Assembly: GCA_016868665.1 (NCBI GenBank)
Contig: VGGK01000003.1
Coordinates: 39,467-103,466, forward strand
DNA length: 64,000 nucleotides
From: Chlorobiota bacterium
GTDB taxonomy: Bacteria; Bacteroidota; Chlorobiia; Chlorobiales; Chlorobiaceae
Direction: 5' to 3'
This document shows positions 29,993 through 40,097 of the stretch, piece after piece. The notes beneath the pieces were generated by a model, which saw only the letters and a list, made by a program, of their open reading frames with translations, was not told the DNA's origin and made no database searches. The translations under genes were made by a program, and so were the position numbers. Every line of letters begins with the position of its first letter. The first letter of the stretch is position 1.

Positions 29993-31603
29993 TCAGTTCG
30001 AAAGTGCTGATTCCCTGCCCGGTACGACGGCTTTTACCGTGAAGAGATGGTAGTTCATGCTGTCGCAGAGCGCCTGCAGGCTGGCTTCGATGATGTTGGT
30101 GGATACACCGACCGTTCCCCAGATCGTTTTACCGTTGCCGGTTTCGATCAGTACCCGCACTTTTGCGCTCGTACCGCGTTTTTCTTCCAGTACGCGAACC
30201 TTGTAATCTACCAGCTTGATGGTTCGGATCTGCGGATAAAAACGGCTGAGCGCCTTGCGCAGGGCCTTGTCAAGTGCGTTTACCGGTCCGTCGCCATCCG
30301 CCGCCACCAGTTCGGTTTCGTCGCCGACGGCAACTTTCAGCACCGCCTGGTCGACATTTTTCATGTCCTTGCGTGACTCTATCGATATTTTTGTTTCAAG
30401 CACATCGAAGAATGGCTTGAAGTTGCCGAGTTCACGTTGCAGGATGAGTTCGAACGACGCTTCGGCCCCATCGAACTGGTAACCCTTGTGTTCGAGCTCC
30501 TTGACGTGGTGTACGAGGGTTTTCAGGAGTTCTCCTTTTTCCGGCAGTTCCACTCCGAGCTCTCTGGCCTTGTAACGGATGTTGCTCTGGCCAGCAAGTT
30601 CAGAAACGAGCACGCGCTGACGGTTTCCTACCAGCATCGGGTCGATATGTTCGTAAAGCGAACTCTCTTTCATGACCGCGCTGACGTGGATCCCTCCTTT
30701 GTGCGCGAAAGCCGAGCGGCCTACGAAAGGAGCTTTTCCGTCCGGCGGAAGATTGAGGATTTCGTAAACGAACTTCGACAGTGAGGTGAGCTGCGTGAGA
30801 TGTTCCACGAAGGTGAAGCTCCGCTGCAGCTTCAGCATGACGTTGGCAATGATGCTGATAAGGTTCGCGTTGCCGCACCGTTCGCCGATACCGTTGATGG
30901 TGCCGTGGATATGTGTCGCTCCGGCAAGGATTGCGGCAAGGGAGTTCGCAACGGCAAGGTCGCCGTCGTTGTGGCTGTGGATACCCACAGGCAGGCCTGT
31001 CTGCTCGAGAACGGTACGAACGATCTCGGTGACTTCGTCGGGCAGCGATCCGCCGTTCGTGTCGCACAGTACCAGGCGTGATGCTCCGGCTTCGGCTGCC
31101 GAACGCAGCATTCTGAGGGCGAATTCCCTGTTATCCTTGTAGCCGTCGAAAAAATGCTCGGCATCGAAGAATACCTCACGGCCCTCTGCTCGCAGCAATG
31201 AAACCGATCGATAGATCAGTTCGGCATTTTCATCCTCGGATATGCCGAGTCCTTTTTTTGTGTGGGCCTGCCAGGTTTTGCCGAAAATGGTTATGACCGG
31301 CGTTTCTGACTGCAGAAGGCCAAGGAGGTTCGGGTCGTTGTCGATGTTTTGCAGAGAACGGGCCGTAGATCCGAAGGCGCAAAGTTTCGAATGTGCAAGA
31401 TTGAGCGTTCGGGCCTTCAGGAAATATTCTTCGTCCTTGGGATTGCTGCTGGGCCACCCTCCTTCTATGAAGTCCATGCCGAACTCGTCGAGTTTTTCGG
31501 TAATGAGCAGCTTGTCCTGCACGGAGAGATTGATGTGCTCGCCCTGCGTGCCGTCACGCAGGGTGGTATCGTAGAGTTCTATTGCCTTCGGCGTTTCATT
31601 CAT
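29993..31603 (-). CDS. cimA: (R)-citramalate synthase
   Basis: The 536-residue enzyme of the DRE-TIM metallolyase family condenses pyruvate and acetyl-CoA to citramalate, opening the threonine-independent route to 2-oxobutyrate and isoleucine. ELYDTTLRDGTQGEHINLS at the N-terminus, EGGWPSSNPKDEEYF and CDTNGGSLPDEV distinguish it from 2-isopropylmalate synthase (which has a different IPS-type substrate loop). HGTINGIGERCGNANL holds the metal-binding His residues. A C-terminal LeuA-type regulatory domain (about 400-536) suggests feedback inhibition, probably by isoleucine. It is the last gene of the operon and overlaps leuD by eight bases. LeuB, LeuC and LeuD upstream can process citramalate as well as isopropylmalate. 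Confidence 0.93.
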   Translation of the reverse strand: MNETPKAIELYDTTLRDGTQGEHINLSVQDKLLITEKLDEFGMDFIEGGWPSSNPKDEEYFLKARTLNLAHSKLCAFGSTARSLQNIDNDPNLLGLLQSETPVITIFGKTWQAHTKKGLGISEDENAELIYRSVSLLRAEGREVFFDAEHFFDGYKDNREFALRMLRSAAEAGASRLVLCDTNGGSLPDEVTEIVRTVLEQTGLPVGIHSHNDGDLAVANSLAAILAGATHIHGTINGIGERCGNANLISIIANVMLKLQRSFTFVEHLTQLTSLSKFVYEILNLPPDGKAPFVGRSAFAHKGGIHVSAVMKESSLYEHIDPMLVGNRQRVLVSELAGQSNIRYKARELGVELPEKGELLKTLVHHVKELEHKGYQFDGAEASFELILQRELGNFKPFFDVLETKISIESRKDMKNVDQAVLKVAVGDETELVAADGDGPVNALDKALRKALSRFYPQIRTIKLVDYKVRVLEEKRGTSAKVRVLIETGNGKTIWGTVGVSTNIIEASLQALCDSMNYHLFTVKAVVPGRESALSN

Positions 31604-32174
31604 GTGGTTCAGTTCCGGCCATTAAATTCTCCTGACGCGCGTATGCGAATATCCCTCCGGCCCTGACAATGTTGAAAACGTCGCCGAGAGGGTTAAGCTG
31701 CCAGGTCACTCCTGTCGTCAGATTGGTTACAGTGTTCGCTTCTATGTCGATTTTCAGTTCATCGCCTGTTCTGACCGCTTCAGTCAGCGTATCAGCAGTC
31801 TCGTAGGGTATAACGAATCCTCCGTCCACACAGTTGCGGTAGAAGATTCTTGCGTACGATTCCGCGATAATGGCTTTTGCTCCTGCGACCTGCAGCGAGA
31901 ACGGGGCATGTTCGCGCGACGAACCGCAGCCGAAGTTCGGACCGGCTACGATGATGGTGAATTCCGACCGGAAACTGCCTTCGTTGACGAACGGGATATT
32001 TCCCTGCGGCAGACCGCCCTGCTCGGGAGGGACGCCGGAGAGGGCATATTTGCCGTACAGCTTCACCTCTTCCGGATCGGAGAGGCTGTATACAAGATGT
32101 TCGGCCGGTATGATCTGGTCGGTATCGATATTCCTGCCTAATACGTAGGCTTTTCCCTGAATGATTGTTTCCAT
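31596..32174 (-). CDS. leuD: Isopropylmalate/citramalate isomerase small subunit
   Basis: LeuD is the small swivelling subunit that with LeuC isomerises 2-isopropylmalate to 3-isopropylmalate, and in citramalate-using bacteria citramalate to 3-methylmalate. The 192-residue protein contains NIDTDQIIPAEHL, the substrate-binding FGCGSSREHAP loop and an IFYRNCVDGGF segment. It belongs to the shorter archaeal-type/HacB-like branch, in which LeuD is about 165-200 residues. The start is 41 bases downstream of leuC and the end overlaps cimA, so expression is probably coupled. Confidence 0.93.
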   Translation of the reverse strand: METIIQGKAYVLGRNIDTDQIIPAEHLVYSLSDPEEVKLYGKYALSGVPPEQGGLPQGNIPFVNEGSFRSEFTIIVAGPNFGCGSSREHAPFSLQVAGAKAIIAESYARIFYRNCVDGGFVIPYETADTLTEAVRTGDELKIDIEANTVTNLTTGVTWQLNPLGDVFNIVRAGGIFAYARQENLMAGTEPHE

Positions 32175-32214: not shown

Positions 32215-33510
32215 TCAGAGGAAATCCCTCGGATCGGTAAGTTTTCCGGTAACGGCCGATGCCGCCGCAGTCAGAGGCGAGGCAAGATAGACTCCGGCTT
32301 TCTTGCTTCCCATGCGCCCGGGGAAGTTGCGGTTCGTGGTCGAGACCACGACGTCGTAATCCACCGATCGTCCTACCGTATCTGCAGGGCCGCCGAGGCA
32401 GGCTGCACAGGAAGGCAGGGCGATGCTGCAGCCTGCATCCTCGAAAATCTTTTTCAGCGTTACGCCTTCATATGTTTCGATTTCGAGATCACGCGCAACT
32501 TTCACGGTTGCCGGTACAATATTGGTCGGTACCGCAGCCTGTCTGCCTTTGAGTATCTTTGCTGCGAGCATGAAATCGGTAAGTTTTCCGCCTGTGCAGG
32601 ATCCGATATACGATTTGGTGATCTTCGTCCCCTGAACGCTTCTTACCGTGGCACGGTTATCCGGGCTGTGCGGCTGTGCTACGACCGGTTCCATCTCTTT
32701 TACGTTGTAGCGGCGGATGCTGTGGTACGGGGCGTCCGGGTCGCTATGGAATATTTCGTACGGTTTGCTGCTGTGAGCTTTCACATAAGCTTCGGTTACT
32801 GCATCAGCGGCGATGATGCCGTTCATGCCGCCGGCTTCTATAGCCATGTTGGTGAGCGTCATGCGCTCTTCGACAGGCAGCGAGTAAACCGCTTCGCCGT
32901 CGAACTCCATAGCCCGGTATGTCGCTCCATCGGTACCGATGTCGCCGAGAATCTGCAGGATGAGGTCCTTCGCAGAGAGGTATTCCGGCATCTCGCCCTC
33001 GAAGGTGAACTTCATGGATTCCGGCACCTTTTCCCAGAGCTTGCCTGTGCCGAGGATGAATGCCGCATCGGTGTTGCCTATACCGGTACCGAACATGCCG
33101 AAAGCTCCGGATGTGCAGGTGTGCGAGTCGGTTCCGAAAAGCACGGTGCCGGGAATATTGAAGCCCTCTTCGGCAAGAGCCACGTGGCAGACCCCTTTGT
33201 AACGGTCGGTGCCTACATCGTAGTAGTTGGGGAGTCCCTGCCGGGCCGCGAACTCACGGAGCAGATCGATATTGCGGTGCGCATGCTCGTTGGCGGTAAA
33301 GATGTAGTGATCGGGCAGGACGACCACTTTTTCCGGATCCCAGACTTTGGCGTCGGGACCGAACTCCTGTCTGAAAATATCGAATGTCGGCGGCCCGCAG
33401 ACGTCATGGGTGAGCAGGATATCGACATTGAGCCATACGTTTTCGCCGGCATCGACGAATTTACGGTTTGCGGCCCGGGAAAGGATTTTCTGGGTTATGG
33501 TTTGTGCCAT
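32215..33510 (-). CDS. leuC: Isopropylmalate/citramalate isomerase large subunit
   Basis: The 431-residue aconitase-fold subunit binds the [4Fe-4S] cluster. Visible motifs: TLFGTDSHTCTSGAFGMF (written VLFGTDSHTCTSGAFG here), GSCTGGKLTDF and SCAACLGGPADT, which supply the cluster cysteines, plus GRMGSKKAGVYLASP near the C-terminus. The length of about 430 rather than 470 places it with the HACN/archaeal-type LeuC that pairs with a small LeuD. It follows leuB with a 51-base gap. The enzyme is oxygen-sensitive, in keeping with anaerobic life. Confidence 0.94.
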   Translation of the reverse strand: MAQTITQKILSRAANRKFVDAGENVWLNVDILLTHDVCGPPTFDIFRQEFGPDAKVWDPEKVVVLPDHYIFTANEHAHRNIDLLREFAARQGLPNYYDVGTDRYKGVCHVALAEEGFNIPGTVLFGTDSHTCTSGAFGMFGTGIGNTDAAFILGTGKLWEKVPESMKFTFEGEMPEYLSAKDLILQILGDIGTDGATYRAMEFDGEAVYSLPVEERMTLTNMAIEAGGMNGIIAADAVTEAYVKAHSSKPYEIFHSDPDAPYHSIRRYNVKEMEPVVAQPHSPDNRATVRSVQGTKITKSYIGSCTGGKLTDFMLAAKILKGRQAAVPTNIVPATVKVARDLEIETYEGVTLKKIFEDAGCSIALPSCAACLGGPADTVGRSVDYDVVVSTTNRNFPGRMGSKKAGVYLASPLTAAASAVTGKLTDPRDFL

Positions 33511-33561: not shown

Positions 33562-34617
33562 TCAGCCGAGATTTTTTACGATGGATGCGGTCATTTCAGT
33601 TGTCGAAACCGGTTTCTGGCCGGCGGCGGTGATGTCGGCGGTCCGCAGTCCTTCGGCAAGAGACGCTTCAATGGCTTTGTAGATTTCGTCGGCGACGTCC
33701 GGCATGCAGAAGCTGTGTTCGAACATCATGGCAACCGATGCGATCGTGGCTATAGGGTTTGCCTTGTTCTGACCGGCGATATCCGGCGCGCTTCCGTGGA
33801 TCGGCTCATACAGAGCGTGACTCTTGCCGATGCTTGCCGAAGGCAGCATGCCGAGACTTCCGGTGATCATGCCGGCGATATCGCTGAGGATGTCTCCGAA
33901 CAGGTTGCCGGTTACGATGACGTCGAACTGTTTCGGGTTGCGCACGATCTGCATTGCGGCGTTATCGACATACATGTCGGCAAGCTCTGTATCGGGGAAA
34001 TCCCTATGGACTTCATGCACCACGTTTCTCCAGAGCTGCGAAACTTCGAGCACGTTGGCCTTGTCTATAGAGGTGACTTTTCCGCCGCGTTTCCGGGCGG
34101 CTTCGAACGCAAGGCGGGCGATACGTTCGACTTCGTAGCGTTCGTAAACCATGGTGTTCCACCCCTTGTTCTCGTCATAGCCCCTCGGCTGACCGAAATA
34201 TATGCCGCCGGTGAGCTCCCTGAAGACGATGAAGTCGGTTCCCCCGACAACGTCGGCCTTGAGTGACGATGCATCGATAAGCGCGTCGTAGATTTTGGCT
34301 GGTCTAAGGTTTGCGAAAAGGCCGAGTTCCTTGCGGATTTTCAGCAGCGCGGCTTCGGGTTTTTGTTCGTGAGGAAGGTTTTCCCATTTCGGACCGCCAA
34401 CGGCACCAAGCAGCACTGCATCACAGTTTCTGCAGGCTTCAAGCGTTTCCTTTGTCAGCATTTCGCCGTGCAGGTCGTATGAGGCTCCGCCGAACGGGTG
34501 TTCCTCTATACTGACGGTAAAACCATGTTTTTCCGAGAGCCGGTTCATGACGGCTACAGCTCCGGCTACAACTTCCGGGCCGATGCCGTCACCCGGTATG
34601 GATACTATTTTATACAT
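33562..34617 (-). CDS. leuB: 3-isopropylmalate dehydrogenase
   Basis: LeuB oxidatively decarboxylates 3-isopropylmalate with NAD+ to the leucine precursor 2-oxoisocaproate, and can also act on 3-methylmalate in the citramalate route. The 351-residue protein starts MYKIVSIPGDGIGPEVV and contains LLGAVGGPKW, the family signature NLFGDILSDIAGMITGSLG and EPIHGSAPDIAGQNKANP. It is 17 bases after ilvC. The length is typical. Together with leuC, leuD and cimA it can serve both leucine and isoleucine formation. Confidence 0.95.
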   Translation of the reverse strand: MYKIVSIPGDGIGPEVVAGAVAVMNRLSEKHGFTVSIEEHPFGGASYDLHGEMLTKETLEACRNCDAVLLGAVGGPKWENLPHEQKPEAALLKIRKELGLFANLRPAKIYDALIDASSLKADVVGGTDFIVFRELTGGIYFGQPRGYDENKGWNTMVYERYEVERIARLAFEAARKRGGKVTSIDKANVLEVSQLWRNVVHEVHRDFPDTELADMYVDNAAMQIVRNPKQFDVIVTGNLFGDILSDIAGMITGSLGMLPSASIGKSHALYEPIHGSAPDIAGQNKANPIATIASVAMMFEHSFCMPDVADEIYKAIEASLAEGLRTADITAAGQKPVSTTEMTASIVKNLG

Positions 34618-34634: not shown

Positions 34635-35627
34635 TTATTTCCTGATCAGCCAGCTCATCATGTCGCGAAGTTTCGCGCCGACCCGCTCGATGGCGTGGCC
34701 GCTGTTTTCCGCTCTGAGCCTGTTGAGATTATTGTAGCCGCCGTTGCACTCGTCGATGAACTCCTTTGCAAAACGTCCGTCCTGCACCTCTTCGAGAATC
34801 TTTTTCATCTCGGCTTTCACTGCAGGGGTAATGACGCGCGGACCGCGGGTCATGCCGCCGTACTCTGCGGTATCGCTGACCGAGAAGTTCATCCTCGAAA
34901 GGCCGCCTTCATAATAGAGATCGACGATAAGTTTCAGTTCGTGCATGCACTCGAAATAGGCCAGCTCTTCCGGGTATCCGGCTTCGACAAGGGTTTCGAA
35001 TCCTGCCTTGATGAGTTCCGCCGAACCGCCGCAAAGCACGGCCTGTTCGCCGAAGAGGTCGGTTTCGGTTTCGTTTTTGAACGTGGTTTCGATGACGCCG
35101 GCTTTAGTGCCGCCGATGCCTTTTGCCCAGGCAAGGGCGATCTGGTGCGCTTCGCCTGTGGCATCCTGATGCACGGCGATGAGGCACGGTACGCCGTTAC
35201 CCTCGGCATAGGTGCGACGAACAAGGTGGCCAGGGCTTTTCGGTGCAATCATGATGACATTTATCGACGCATCAGGCACGATCTGATTGTAATGGATATT
35301 GAATCCGTGGGCAAATGCCAGGGTATTGCCCGGCTGCAGGTTCGGCGCAATTTCGCTTTCATAGATCGCTTTCTGGTACTGATCGGGCAGGAGCACCATG
35401 ACGATATCTGCCCATTTCACGGCATCGGCCACGGTGTTGACCTGCAGGCCTGCTTCGCGGGCACGGTCGCAGGATGAACTGTCGGGGCGGAGACCCACGC
35501 AGACATTCATTCCGCTCTCCTTGAGATTCAGGGCGTGCGCATGGCCCTGGCTGCCGTAACCGAGTATGGCGATATTTTTTCCCTGCAGATAACCGAGATC
35601 GGCATCCTGCTCATAATAAGCGTTCAT
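34635..35627 (-). CDS. ilvC: Ketol-acid reductoisomerase (class I)
   Basis: IlvC isomerises and reduces acetolactate or acetohydroxybutyrate with NADPH. The 330-residue protein has the class I layout: Rossmann motif [19 protein letters not shown], then [13 protein letters not shown] (written so in the sequence) and the knotted C-terminal domain with [14 protein letters not shown] and [18 protein letters not shown], which holds Mg2+ ligands. Ends in a short basic tail. It sits between ilvN and leuB in the operon, with gaps of 42 and 17 bases. Confidence 0.96.
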
Positions 35628-35669: not shown

Positions 35670-36149
35670 TCAGGATTCACCCCGGTGGATGGCTACAGCT
35701 CCGGAGCGGGCAAGCTCCTTTATGCCGTACGGTCTGAAAATATCAATGGTTGTATTGATCTTGTCCGGAGAACCGATGACCTCAATAGTAATGGATTTTT
35801 GTTTTATATCCACGACTTTTCCCTTAAAAACATTGATGAGACCGAAAATCTCATGCTGGGTGGCTCTGCTGAGTTTCAGGGTCATGAGCAGCAGTTCGCG
35901 CTCGACATGAGGCTGTTTCGTCAGGTCGGTTACCTTGATGGTATCGATCAGCCGGTTGAGTTGCTTGAGCACCTGGCTGATGATCTGGTCGTCACCTCTT
36001 GTGACGATGGTCATGCGTGAAATTTCGGTGTCTTCGGTTTCGCCTATGGAGATGCTTTCGAGGTTGAAGCCCCGGGCACTGAACATCGCGGCGACACGGT
36101 TCAGTGTGCCGAACTTGTTTTCGACCAGAACGGATATGATGTGTTTCAT
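35670..36149 (-). CDS. ilvN: Acetolactate synthase regulatory subunit
   Basis: The 159-residue protein has an N-terminal ACT domain (MKHIISVLVENKFGTLNRVA, then ARGFNLESISIGETED) and a C-terminal ferredoxin-like domain (QHEIFGLINVFKGKVVDI). It activates IlvB and gives valine feedback inhibition. The ATG at 36149 was chosen from the family N-terminus; a TTG four codons upstream is possible. It begins eight bases after the ilvB stop, so translation is probably coupled. The name IlvH is used for the same type in enteric bacteria. Confidence 0.94.
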   Translation of the reverse strand: MKHIISVLVENKFGTLNRVAAMFSARGFNLESISIGETEDTEISRMTIVTRGDDQIISQVLKQLNRLIDTIKVTDLTKQPHVERELLLMTLKLSRATQHEIFGLINVFKGKVVDIKQKSITIEVIGSPDKINTTIDIFRPYGIKELARSGAVAIHRGES

Positions 36150-36157
36150 GGTGCGTT

Positions 36158-37879
36158 TCAAACCATTGTTTTCGGGTTCAGTCTCTTCAGCAGCATGTCG
36201 GAAATCGATCCGCCTGCCGGGACCATAGGGAATACCATATCTTTTTTGATGACCCTGAAATCGACCAGTATCGGGCCGTCGTTGTATGCGAGCGCTTCAG
36301 TGATGGCCAGCTTTGCCTCTTCCGGATTTTCTGCACGCATTGCCCGGCAGCCGAACGCTTCGGCAACTTTTACGAAATCCGGGTTACTTTCGGCGAGGTC
36401 GGTGAACGAGTACTTTTCCTGGTGGAAAAGTTCCTGCCACTGACGCACCATGCCGAGAAAGCTGTTGTTGATAAGGAAAATCTTGACCGGTATTCGGTAG
36501 TGTACGGCCGTAACCATCTCCTGCACGTTCATCATAAAACCTCCGTCGCCGCAGAAAAGCACGACGGGCCGGTCGGTCACTCCGAATGCCGCCCCGATTG
36601 CCGCCGGAAGTCCGTAGCCCATGGTGCCGAGGCCGCCGCTGGTGATGATCGATCGGGGTTTTCTGAACCTGTAGTACTGGGTCGTCCACATCTGGTGCTG
36701 TCCAACGTCGGTCGTCACAACGGCGTTTCCTTCCGTTTGACGGCTGACTTCGTCGATCACGTATTCGGTTTTCAGCGAATCGCTCTCGATCGTGTAGGTC
36801 AATGGACAATCGTCCTGCCAGACGCGGATCTGCGCGAGCCATCCGGAACGGTCTTCGGTGTGTTTCGGCATCTCACGGAGCAGTCCGGTGAGGAAATCCC
36901 TGGCGTCGCCGACCACGGGAAGGTCGACCTTGATGTTCTTGTCGACATTTGTCGGGTCGATATCGTTATGGATGATGTATGCCTGGGTGGCAAAGGTATC
37001 CGTTTTGCCTGTTACCCGGTCATCGAACCTCGCACCGACGGCTACGAGAAGGTCGCAGTTATTGACGGCCTGGTTCGCCCAGTAGGTGCCGTGCATGCCG
37101 AGCATGCCCATGGAGAGCGGATGGTCGCCGGGAAATGCACCAAGTCCCTGCAGCGTCATGGTGACCGGAATGTTCTGTTCGACGGCGAGCCGGCGAAGCT
37201 CTTCGGAAGCTTCGGACGAAATGACTCCTCCCCCGATGTAGAGCAGAGGTTTTTTTGCTTTTGCTATTTTGTGCGCGGCTTTCTCGATCTGGTTCTGATG
37301 ACACCTGATGGTCGGTTTGAATCCTCTGATATCGACGCTTTCCGGCCATTCGAAAGCGCACTGGGCGTTCAGGACATCTTTCGGCATATCGACCAGAACC
37401 GGACCGGGTCTGCCGTTCGTGGCAAGGTAGAATGCCTTGCGGATGGTAGAGGCCAGCTCCCTGACGTCCTTGACCAGGAAGTTGTGCTTGGTGATAGGCC
37501 GGGTTATGCCGACGATATCGGCTTCCTGAAATGCGTCGTTGCCGATAAGGGAACTCGGTACCTGACCGGTGAAGACCACCATCGGAGAAGAGTCCATATA
37601 GGCGTTGGTTATTCCTGTGACGGTGTTGGTGGCTCCCGGTCCTGAGGTGACAAGCACGACGCCCGGTTTGCCGGTAGCCCTTGCATAGCCTTCGGCCATG
37701 TGCGTGGCTCCCTGTTCGTGACGGACAAGGATATGCCGGATATCCTTGATGTCGTAGAGCGTTTCGTAAACTTTCAGAAGCGCTCCGCCGGGGTAGCCGA
37801 AAATGTATTCGACCTTTTCACGTCTCAGACACTCGAAGAATATTTCGGAACCGTTCAGTTTCTGTCCTGGTGCATGCAT
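36158..37879 (-). CDS. ilvB: Acetolactate synthase catalytic subunit
   Basis: This 573-residue thiamine-diphosphate enzyme makes acetolactate (valine, leucine) and acetohydroxybutyrate (isoleucine). Recognisable parts are GYPGGALLKVYE and RHEQGATHMAEGYARATG with the ThDP glutamate at the N-terminus, the central FAD-binding domain, and the ThDP motif GDGGFMMNVQEM ending in INNSFLGMVRQWQ. It lies between ilvD (nine bases upstream) and ilvN, which encodes its regulatory partner. Length and motifs are those of biosynthetic AHAS rather than catabolic AlsS. Confidence 0.96.
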   Translation of the reverse strand: MHAPGQKLNGSEIFFECLRREKVEYIFGYPGGALLKVYETLYDIKDIRHILVRHEQGATHMAEGYARATGKPGVVLVTSGPGATNTVTGITNAYMDSSPMVVFTGQVPSSLIGNDAFQEADIVGITRPITKHNFLVKDVRELASTIRKAFYLATNGRPGPVLVDMPKDVLNAQCAFEWPESVDIRGFKPTIRCHQNQIEKAAHKIAKAKKPLLYIGGGVISSEASEELRRLAVEQNIPVTMTLQGLGAFPGDHPLSMGMLGMHGTYWANQAVNNCDLLVAVGARFDDRVTGKTDTFATQAYIIHNDIDPTNVDKNIKVDLPVVGDARDFLTGLLREMPKHTEDRSGWLAQIRVWQDDCPLTYTIESDSLKTEYVIDEVSRQTEGNAVVTTDVGQHQMWTTQYYRFRKPRSIITSGGLGTMGYGLPAAIGAAFGVTDRPVVLFCGDGGFMMNVQEMVTAVHYRIPVKIFLINNSFLGMVRQWQELFHQEKYSFTDLAESNPDFVKVAEAFGCRAMRAENPEEAKLAITEALAYNDGPILVDFRVIKKDMVFPMVPAGGSISDMLLKRLNPKTMV

Positions 37880-37888
37880 GATCTGGTA

Positions 37889-39586
37889 TTATTTGGTTTC
37901 GCAGAAAACAGGGCTTTTCATGATCGCTCCGGTGCTTGCCGATGTGACGAGCTGCGAGTAGCGGGCAAGGTACCCTTTTTTGATTTTCGGCTCGAACGGC
38001 GTGAGCTCCTTAAGCCGTTCCTGTACGGTGCTGTCGGGCAGGTCCATGCTGATCGATCGGTTCGGTATATCAATGGTGATCATGTCGCCGTTCCTCAGGG
38101 CGGCTATCGGTCCATTCTCTGCGGCTTCCGGAGAGACATGTCCGATGCAGGCCCCCCTCGACCCTCCGGAAAACCGTCCGTCGGTAACGAGCGCCACCGA
38201 ACTGCCGAGTCCACGCCCCATGATTGCGCTGGTGGGCGAGAGCATCTCGGGCATGCCGGGTCCGCCTTTCGGTCCTTCGTATCGGATGACCACGACATCA
38301 CCTGCAACGATATCGCCCTCCATAATGCCTTTCAGCGCGTCGTCCTGTGAATCATATACTCTGGCGGGGCCGGTATGACGCATCATTTCAGGGGCGACTG
38401 CGCCGGTTTTGATGACGGCGCCCTGCGGCGCGAGATTGCCGTACAGCACGGCAAGTCCTCCTGTTGCGGAATAAGGGTCCTCGACGCTCCGGATGACGTT
38501 GCGGTCGAGCACACCGGCTTCGGCTATGTTCTCACCGAGGGTTTTTCCGGTTACCGTCGGCACCGAGAGGTCAAGCAGACCCTCTATCGAGCTGAGCTCT
38601 TTCAGAATAGCCGAAACGCCTCCCGCACGGTCGACGTCTTCGATGTGCACTTCCATGGTTGCCGGGCTCACCTTGCAGATGTAGGGTGTTTTTGCGGAAA
38701 GACCGTTCAGTTCCGAAAAGTCGAAATCCAGTTCCGCTTCGTTGGCAATGGCCAGCGTGTGCAGGATCGTGTTGGTGCTTCCTCCCATGGCAAAATCGAG
38801 GGAAAAAGCGTTAAGCAGCGATTTTCTGGTGAGGATGTCTCTTGGCCTGACATTGCGGTCTACCAGGTCGATGATCCTGCGCGAAGCCTCCCTGACCAGT
38901 TCTCTGCGGCGCGGATCTTCGGCAAGAACCGTGCCGTTTCCCGGAAGGGCCATGCCCAGGGCTTCGGAAAGACAGTTCATTGAATTGGCCGTGAACATTC
39001 CGGAACAGGAGCCGCATCCGGGGCACGCGCTGTCCTGGATTGTTTCAAGCTCGGATTCGGTTATCTCTCCGGTGCTGCACTGGCCGACCGCTTCGAATAC
39101 CGAGATCAGGTCAACCGTTTTGCCGGAGGGTGTATGGCCGGCTCTCATGGGGCCGCCGGAAACGAAGATTACCGGGATGTTGATGCGCAGCGCGGCCATC
39201 ATCATGCCCGGCGTTATCTTGTCGCAGTTAGGTATGCAGACAAGCCCGTCGAGTCTGTGCGCTTCGGCTACGGTTTCGACGCTGTCGGCAATGATTTCGC
39301 GGCTTGCGAGCGAGTATCGCATGCCGATATGGCCCATGGCGATGCCGTCGCAGACGCCGATGGTGTTGAACTCGAAGGGCACTCCGCCGGCCTTTCGAAC
39401 TTCTTCACTGGCGATTCTTCCCAGTTCCTGCAGGTGCGCATGGCCGGGAATGAGCTCGTTGAACGAGTTGCAGATGCCGATGAACGGCTTTCTGAAATCG
39501 CTGTTGGATGCGATTGCTCCGGTAGCCTTGAGGAGGCTGCGGTGCGGCGCTTTTTCGAATCCTTTTTTTACCGTATCAGATCTCAT
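37889..39586 (-). CDS. ilvD: Dihydroxy-acid dehydratase
   Basis: IlvD dehydrates 2,3-dihydroxy-isovalerate and -methylvalerate to the 2-oxo acids. The protein from this start has 565 residues. Iron-sulfur cluster cysteines appear in [13 protein letters not shown] and [17 protein letters not shown]; the C-terminal domain contains [17 protein letters not shown] and [10 protein letters not shown]. The frame is open 19 codons further, to 39643, but the family start [16 protein letters not shown] fixes the ATG at 39586. The extra codons (mostly Val, Leu, Ile) come from the U-rich tail of a candidate attenuator rather than from the enzyme. First structural gene of the ilv-leu-cimA operon. Confidence 0.95.
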
Positions 39587-39604
39587 GATGACAATGTTGA
39601 CAAT

Positions 39605-39640
39605 TAACAAAACAACCCCCGGGCCTGCCGTTCCCGAAGC
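39605..39640 (-). promoter_or_regulatory. Candidate attenuator hairpin before ilvD
   Basis: On the minus strand the sequence CTTCGGG (near 39639) can pair with CCCGGGG (near 39617) across a nine-base loop, allowing two G-U pairs, and is followed at once by the U-rich tail GTTGTTTTGTT. This lies between the end of the branched-chain-rich leader frame (39698) and the ilvD start (39586), where a transcription attenuator is expected. I did not identify a convincing antiterminator pairing by eye. Confidence 0.5.
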
Positions 39641-39697
39641 CATCAGATTTGCTTATTGTCTGAGAAGGAAAAAATGGACTTGGGACCGGCTTTCTGT

Positions 39698-39856
39698 TCA
39701 GATTACAGAAATGATTACCTGTACGGGAAGTACAGATACCGACACTCCGATCCTGGTGCTGAGGATGAGGCGCGTGCAAACCGCACTGACGCTGTTTTCG
39801 AAGGAACTTGTCGATCCTGTATGTGCTGAGCGGCTATGTGTTCCTGTTCCTTGCAT
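39698..39856 (-). CDS. Candidate ilv leader peptide (52 codons)
   Basis: A short frame starts at the ATG at 39856 and stops with TGA at 39698, upstream of ilvD. It is not otherwise explained. The first 34 codons are unremarkable, but the last 18 read RIGVSVSVLPVQVIISVI, with 11 Val/Ile/Leu residues, which is the composition of leader peptides that sense charged branched-chain tRNAs. It ends 58 bases before a hairpin with a U-rich tail. No good ribosome-binding site precedes the ATG, and a shorter form starting at the GTG in the Val-rich part is possible. The region 39857-40097 upstream has no gene on this strand and should hold the operon promoter. Confidence 0.55.
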   Translation of the reverse strand: MQGTGTHSRSAHTGSTSSFENSVSAVCTRLILSTRIGVSVSVLPVQVIISVI

Positions 39857-40097
39857 GTAACTCGTTCAATACAGGGTTTGTCGGTTGCAGTGCGCTTTAT
39901 AAACGAACAAAATATACAAACAGGCCATAATTTACATATTGGAGCCAATTAAAACAAACTGTAAAAAAAAGGATAAAAGGTCCTTCGGATTTTCTATTTA
40001 TTTGTAGTTTTCTTAGTGTAAAAATGAACGAATGCACTTTGTGCGGTAATCGTTCCGGATCTGCTTTTTTCAGCAACGAAATCAAAGAACTGGTATT

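Follow-up and report, generated by a model that had tools for sequence, protein, structure and literature searches.

The ilv, leu and trp operons of Escherichia coli are governed by four-strand ribosome-mediated attenuators, and this mechanism is textbook. A 2010 paper stated that leader peptides for amino acids had been described in no groups other than Proteobacteria and Actinobacteria, and itself added a Firmicutes case (PMC2965389); in 2023 candidate ilvB motifs were described in further groups (PMC10272879). Our literature search found no description of attenuation in Chlorobi/Bacteroidetes; an earlier prediction in older comparative papers is possible. As far as this search shows, its occurrence in green sulfur bacteria would be new. 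Here we report that the element upstream of ilvD in a Chlorobiota bacterium is, with high probability, a classical ribosome-mediated transcription attenuator, which most likely restricts transcription of the operon to times when valine, isoleucine or leucine is short. A sequence-only reading of this DNA had claimed that a green sulfur bacterium controls a whole eight-gene operon in this way, and the comparison of relatives presented below supported the claim as one of candidate regulation.

The window, that is, the whole stretch of 64,000 nucleotides that was analysed, contains the operon ilvD-ilvB-ilvN-ilvC-leuB-leuC-leuD-cimA, whose products make valine and, through citramalate, isoleucine, and cover part of the leucine pathway. 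The genes and the region preceding them are as follows.

37889..39586, minus strand: ilvD, first gene of the operon (TIGR00110), start taken from the alignment of relatives
36158..37879, minus strand: ilvB (TIGR00118)
35670..36161, minus strand: ilvN (TIGR00119)
34635..35627, minus strand: ilvC (TIGR00465)
33562..34617, minus strand: leuB (TIGR00169)
32215..33510, minus strand: leuC-type isopropylmalate dehydratase large subunit (NF001614, TIGR02086)
31596..32174, minus strand: leuD-type isopropylmalate dehydratase small subunit (TIGR02087)
29993..31603, minus strand: cimA, citramalate synthase (TIGR00977)
39929..39958, minus strand: promoter-like block TTTG-N20-TAAATT, recognised by its recurrence in ilvD upstream regions; putative function

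The listed ilvD ORF opens at ATG 39643, which sits within the leader region, 57 bases before the true start at 39586. In relatives, ilvD begins at the ATG equivalent to 39586 (MRSDT[IV]...), and many of them have stops between both ATGs. The Val/Leu/Ile-rich codons that had been ascribed to the ilvD frame after the hairpin are thus leader RNA and not protein, and they were seen because the over-long ilvD ORF covers this RNA.

Conservation was assessed in 83 distinct ilvD upstream regions, drawn from two Chlorobiaceae genera (the second being Chlorobaculum) and from two outgroup genomes of another family in the same order. The pattern TTTG-N18-21-TAnnTT was present in 48 of the 83 regions, compared with 4.5% of shuffles. 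Since this conserved promoter-like block recurs upstream of the leader, and not downstream of 39698, the transcription start most likely precedes the leader. The block in the window resembles the Bacteroidetes promoter type. A sigma-70 promoter scan returned no site, and a divergent DUF92 gene lies upstream.

The leader frame is unannotated and reads MQGTGTHSRSAHTGSTSSFENSVSAVCTRLILSTRIGVSVSVLPVQVIISVI up to its stop codon.

39698..39856, minus strand: leader peptide ORF of 52 codons, with the Val/Ile/Leu-rich tail at codons 39754-39701 and the stop TGA at 39700-39698

The frame described by the sequence-only reading, with 11 Val/Ile/Leu in its last 18 codons, was indeed present with the same translation, and it alone reached this 11/18 tail among the 658 window ORFs of 20-80 amino acids. 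The ribosome-binding site reported as missing was not found either: no Shine-Dalgarno-like sequence precedes the leader ATG, and none is evident before ilvD. When a leader was scored as conserved if an ATG frame ended with at least 7 Val/Ile/Leu among 18 codons, 71/83 regions carried one. Its commonest length was 57 codons (exactly 57 in 30 of these 71 loci). The tail held on average 10.03 Val/Ile/Leu per 18 codons in frame versus 1.14 and 3.32 in the shifted frames (71 loci), and pN/pS was about 0.39 in the tail, indicating constraint, versus about 0.77 in the near-neutral and little conserved N-terminal part. The distance from the leader stop to strand 2 of the RNA described below was 9-14 nt in 71/71 loci, a stop-codon position that fits masking of strand 2 by a terminating ribosome.

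The leader is unusually long, and its N-terminal two thirds (window 39754-39856) evolve almost freely despite the recurrent 57-codon length.

Twelve of the 83 loci fell outside the conserved set. Five of them had a shortened leader (5-6 Val/Ile/Leu) and three a weaker tail; one retained the Val/Ile/Leu tail, the ATG search having chosen a different frame there, and the remaining three had lost the element (genomes G062, G067 and G022, 96-100% complete). The absence of the element from three nearly complete genomes was counted as evidence against an attenuator. At these three loci (L062, L067 and L069, in G067, G022 and G062, respectively), the ilv leader and attenuator are lost and a leuA leader is retained.

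A small functional protein, such as a membrane peptide, next to hairpins that serve as an ordinary stability or processing element, would also account for a hydrophobic tail and for conservation of the frame over the family. Such a protein is very improbable, as the N-terminal part is hardly held, the frame is always coupled to the same RNA strands at fixed spacing, and it precedes an operon for valine, isoleucine and leucine.

The RNA parts of the proposed attenuator lie in and behind the leader frame.

39747..39753, minus strand: strand 1, GGAUCGG, forming with strand 2 a putative pause/protector hairpin 1:2 (window fold; paired cells in relatives)
39676..39690, minus strand: strand 2, antiterminator 5' arm, GCCGGUCCCAAGUCC (pairing and covariation)
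39627..39641, minus strand: strand 3, antiterminator 3' arm, GGCUUCGGGAACGGC, which includes the terminator 5' arm (2:3 covariation, 3:4 pairing)
39600..39639, minus strand: intrinsic terminator, CUUCGGG (39639-39633) pairing with CCCGGGG (strand 4, 39623-39617), U-rich tail 39616-39600

The hairpin with a U-rich tail that had been noticed 58 bases past the stop was confirmed as CTTCGGG-N9-CCCGGGG at 39639-39617. Its loop exceeds 8, so that a simple terminator scan overlooked it and called another hairpin, within the leader codons. A clear antiterminator had been described as absent; this did not hold, as a 2:3 helix was found that shares strand 3 with the terminator, which makes the antiterminator and the 3:4 terminator mutually exclusive. 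Alignment and folding of Chlorobiales upstream regions showed 80 loci that share the Val/Ile/Leu-rich frame end and the mutually exclusive hairpins, with fixed spacing from the stop to strand 2, in agreement with the sequence-only reading.

Pairing was then counted per cell in the alignment of these 80 sequences (A1) against 500 shuffles. The 2:3 helix had standard pairs in 88.3% of cells (83.4% after shuffling), two-sided changes in 41 cells (12.5 after shuffling) and a covariation score of 0.202 (0.123 after shuffling). None of the 500 shuffles attained the observed values, and all slid registers were worse. Among the compensatory changes, U-A replaced G-C at the fourth pair and C-G close to the loop. 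The 3:4 helix was paired in 84.6% of cells; its changes were one-sided (U-G to U-A and similar), with no covariation excess over shuffles, a pattern that the constraint of strand 3 by two partners may explain. In 68/80 sequences, the 14 nt following the 3:4 stem contained 7 U or more. In the window itself, the U-tract is interrupted and the terminator stem is moderately stable only, its energy being no better than that of shuffles. This weak terminator energy is all that speaks for chance, by which base composition would yield a Val/Ile/Leu-rich frame with an unrelated hairpin. A frame that is unique among the window ORFs and conserved in 71 loci, together with a covarying helix, already contradicts this explanation, and we regard it as extremely improbable.

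The moderate stability of the stem, together with the lack of an evident Shine-Dalgarno sequence at ilvD, would also be compatible with control of translation instead of transcription, the alternative structures governing ribosome access to ilvD. We consider this unlikely, since the 3:4 stem of most relatives is followed by a U-rich tail, and about 30 nt separate the end of the stem from the ilvD ATG, which is left uncovered.

Strand 1 falls within the Arg-Ile-Gly codons of the leader, and in the window a three-way fold with strand 1:strand 2 at its base reached -25.8 kcal/mol (z -2.64). The 1:2 helix was paired in 62.5% of cells in relatives, where its formation is a prediction. The 1:2 hairpin is the least certain part of the switch, because it is less regular across relatives and shows no covariation excess. 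The latter counts against an attenuator, as do the interrupted U-tract and moderately stable terminator stem of the window and the missing Shine-Dalgarno sequence before the leader ATG.

In the transcription attenuator that we propose, a shortage of charged Val-, Ile- or Leu-tRNA would make a ribosome that translates the leader stall in the tail codons, on strand 1 or beyond it but short of strand 2. Strand 2 could then capture the nascent strand 3, leaving strand 4 single, and transcription would read on through ilvD to cimA. When amino acids are plentiful, the ribosome would arrive at the stop codon, which lies 10 nt ahead of strand 2, and would cover the base of that strand; with strand 2 masked, the 3:4 terminator would form and transcription would stop about 15-30 nt before ilvD. 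If the leader is not translated, the 1:2 hairpin would block strand 2, and termination should follow as well.

To follow the element beyond these loci, a covariance model built from strands 2-4 was searched in 296 genomes of the phylum, as delimited in the collection. In each of 60 Chlorobiaceae genomes and 2 genomes of the sister family, the model located a single site, which lay at ilvD. The genome under study has no second copy of the ilv element. One weak match, from a further family of this phylum (G135, E 0.004), had no ilv gene nearby and was taken as a false positive. Frames rich in Val/Ile/Leu also precede the closest outside ilvD genes, in a Bacteroidetes MAG (L221), Neomarinimicrobiota (L222) and CSSED10-310 (L223); these are single genomes and serve only as leads. 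In other phyla, Desulfobacterales among them, short Val/Ile/Leu-rich frames together with strong terminators were observed before ilvD at L233, L285 and L298. The frames at all six loci are candidate attenuators.

A second leader was found at leuA, in another part of the same genome; there, the Leu-rich leader MFTVNLNSLSTGLCLLLQSSGALGGGAF, ending at a stop codon, and a strong terminator come before the gene.

3368-3282 of L098 (contig C4), minus strand: leuA leader, with the terminator at about 3250-3210, just before leuA

Leaders of the same kind were present in about 25 of the 30 leuA loci checked first, for example NNLLLTLGLLLLSERALRGGAF, and in 16/16 further genomes, including the three from which the ilv element has been lost. 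This leader is conserved in both Chlorobiaceae genera. Such leader peptides were absent before hisG, trpE and pheA, each checked in 14-15 genomes. We lean towards the view that green sulfur bacteria have two attenuation switches, one for Val/Ile/Leu at ilvD...cimA and one for Leu at leuA, and that the ilvD switch is older than the split between Chlorobiaceae and the sister family and may reach other Bacteroidota relatives.

A family-wide attenuator that is backed by covariation, in photosynthetic bacteria of ancient divergence, would broaden the range of the mechanism, and it gives green sulfur bacteria a route for regulating amino acid synthesis that can be tested. The analysis also corrects the ilvD gene start, and the alignment is available for a new RNA family entry.

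Searches of Rfam 15, including T-box and other leader families, gave no match at the gathering score, and lax thresholds returned unrelated matches only, well below their gathering scores. The Chlorobiaceae element likewise has no sequence or Rfam match to enteric ilvL (ilvGMEDA), ivbL (ilvBN) or leuL. It resembles these three in having a short leader ORF rich in end-product codons, a stop just before strand 2, an alternative 2:3 antiterminator and 3:4 terminator, and predicted cis control of an ilv/leu operon. Unlike them, its leader is longer, at about 57 codons, and has no Shine-Dalgarno sequence, and its operon begins with ilvD and ends with cimA for the citramalate route to isoleucine. 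The Corynebacterium ilvBNC attenuator (ilvB-II motif; PMC10272879, PMC11857589) is similar in combining a uORF rich in branched-chain amino acid codons with a terminator and antiterminator, and its leader is also reported to have no ribosome-binding site (reference 16 of PMC10272879); in contrast to the Chlorobiaceae element, the ilvB-II motif precedes ilvB in Actinobacteria, and no relation between the two was detected. The ilvB-OMG and Leptospira ilvB motifs (PMC10272879) are, like the present element, candidate uORF attenuators for branched-chain amino acids outside Proteobacteria, and they precede ilvB, whereas the Chlorobiaceae element precedes ilvD.
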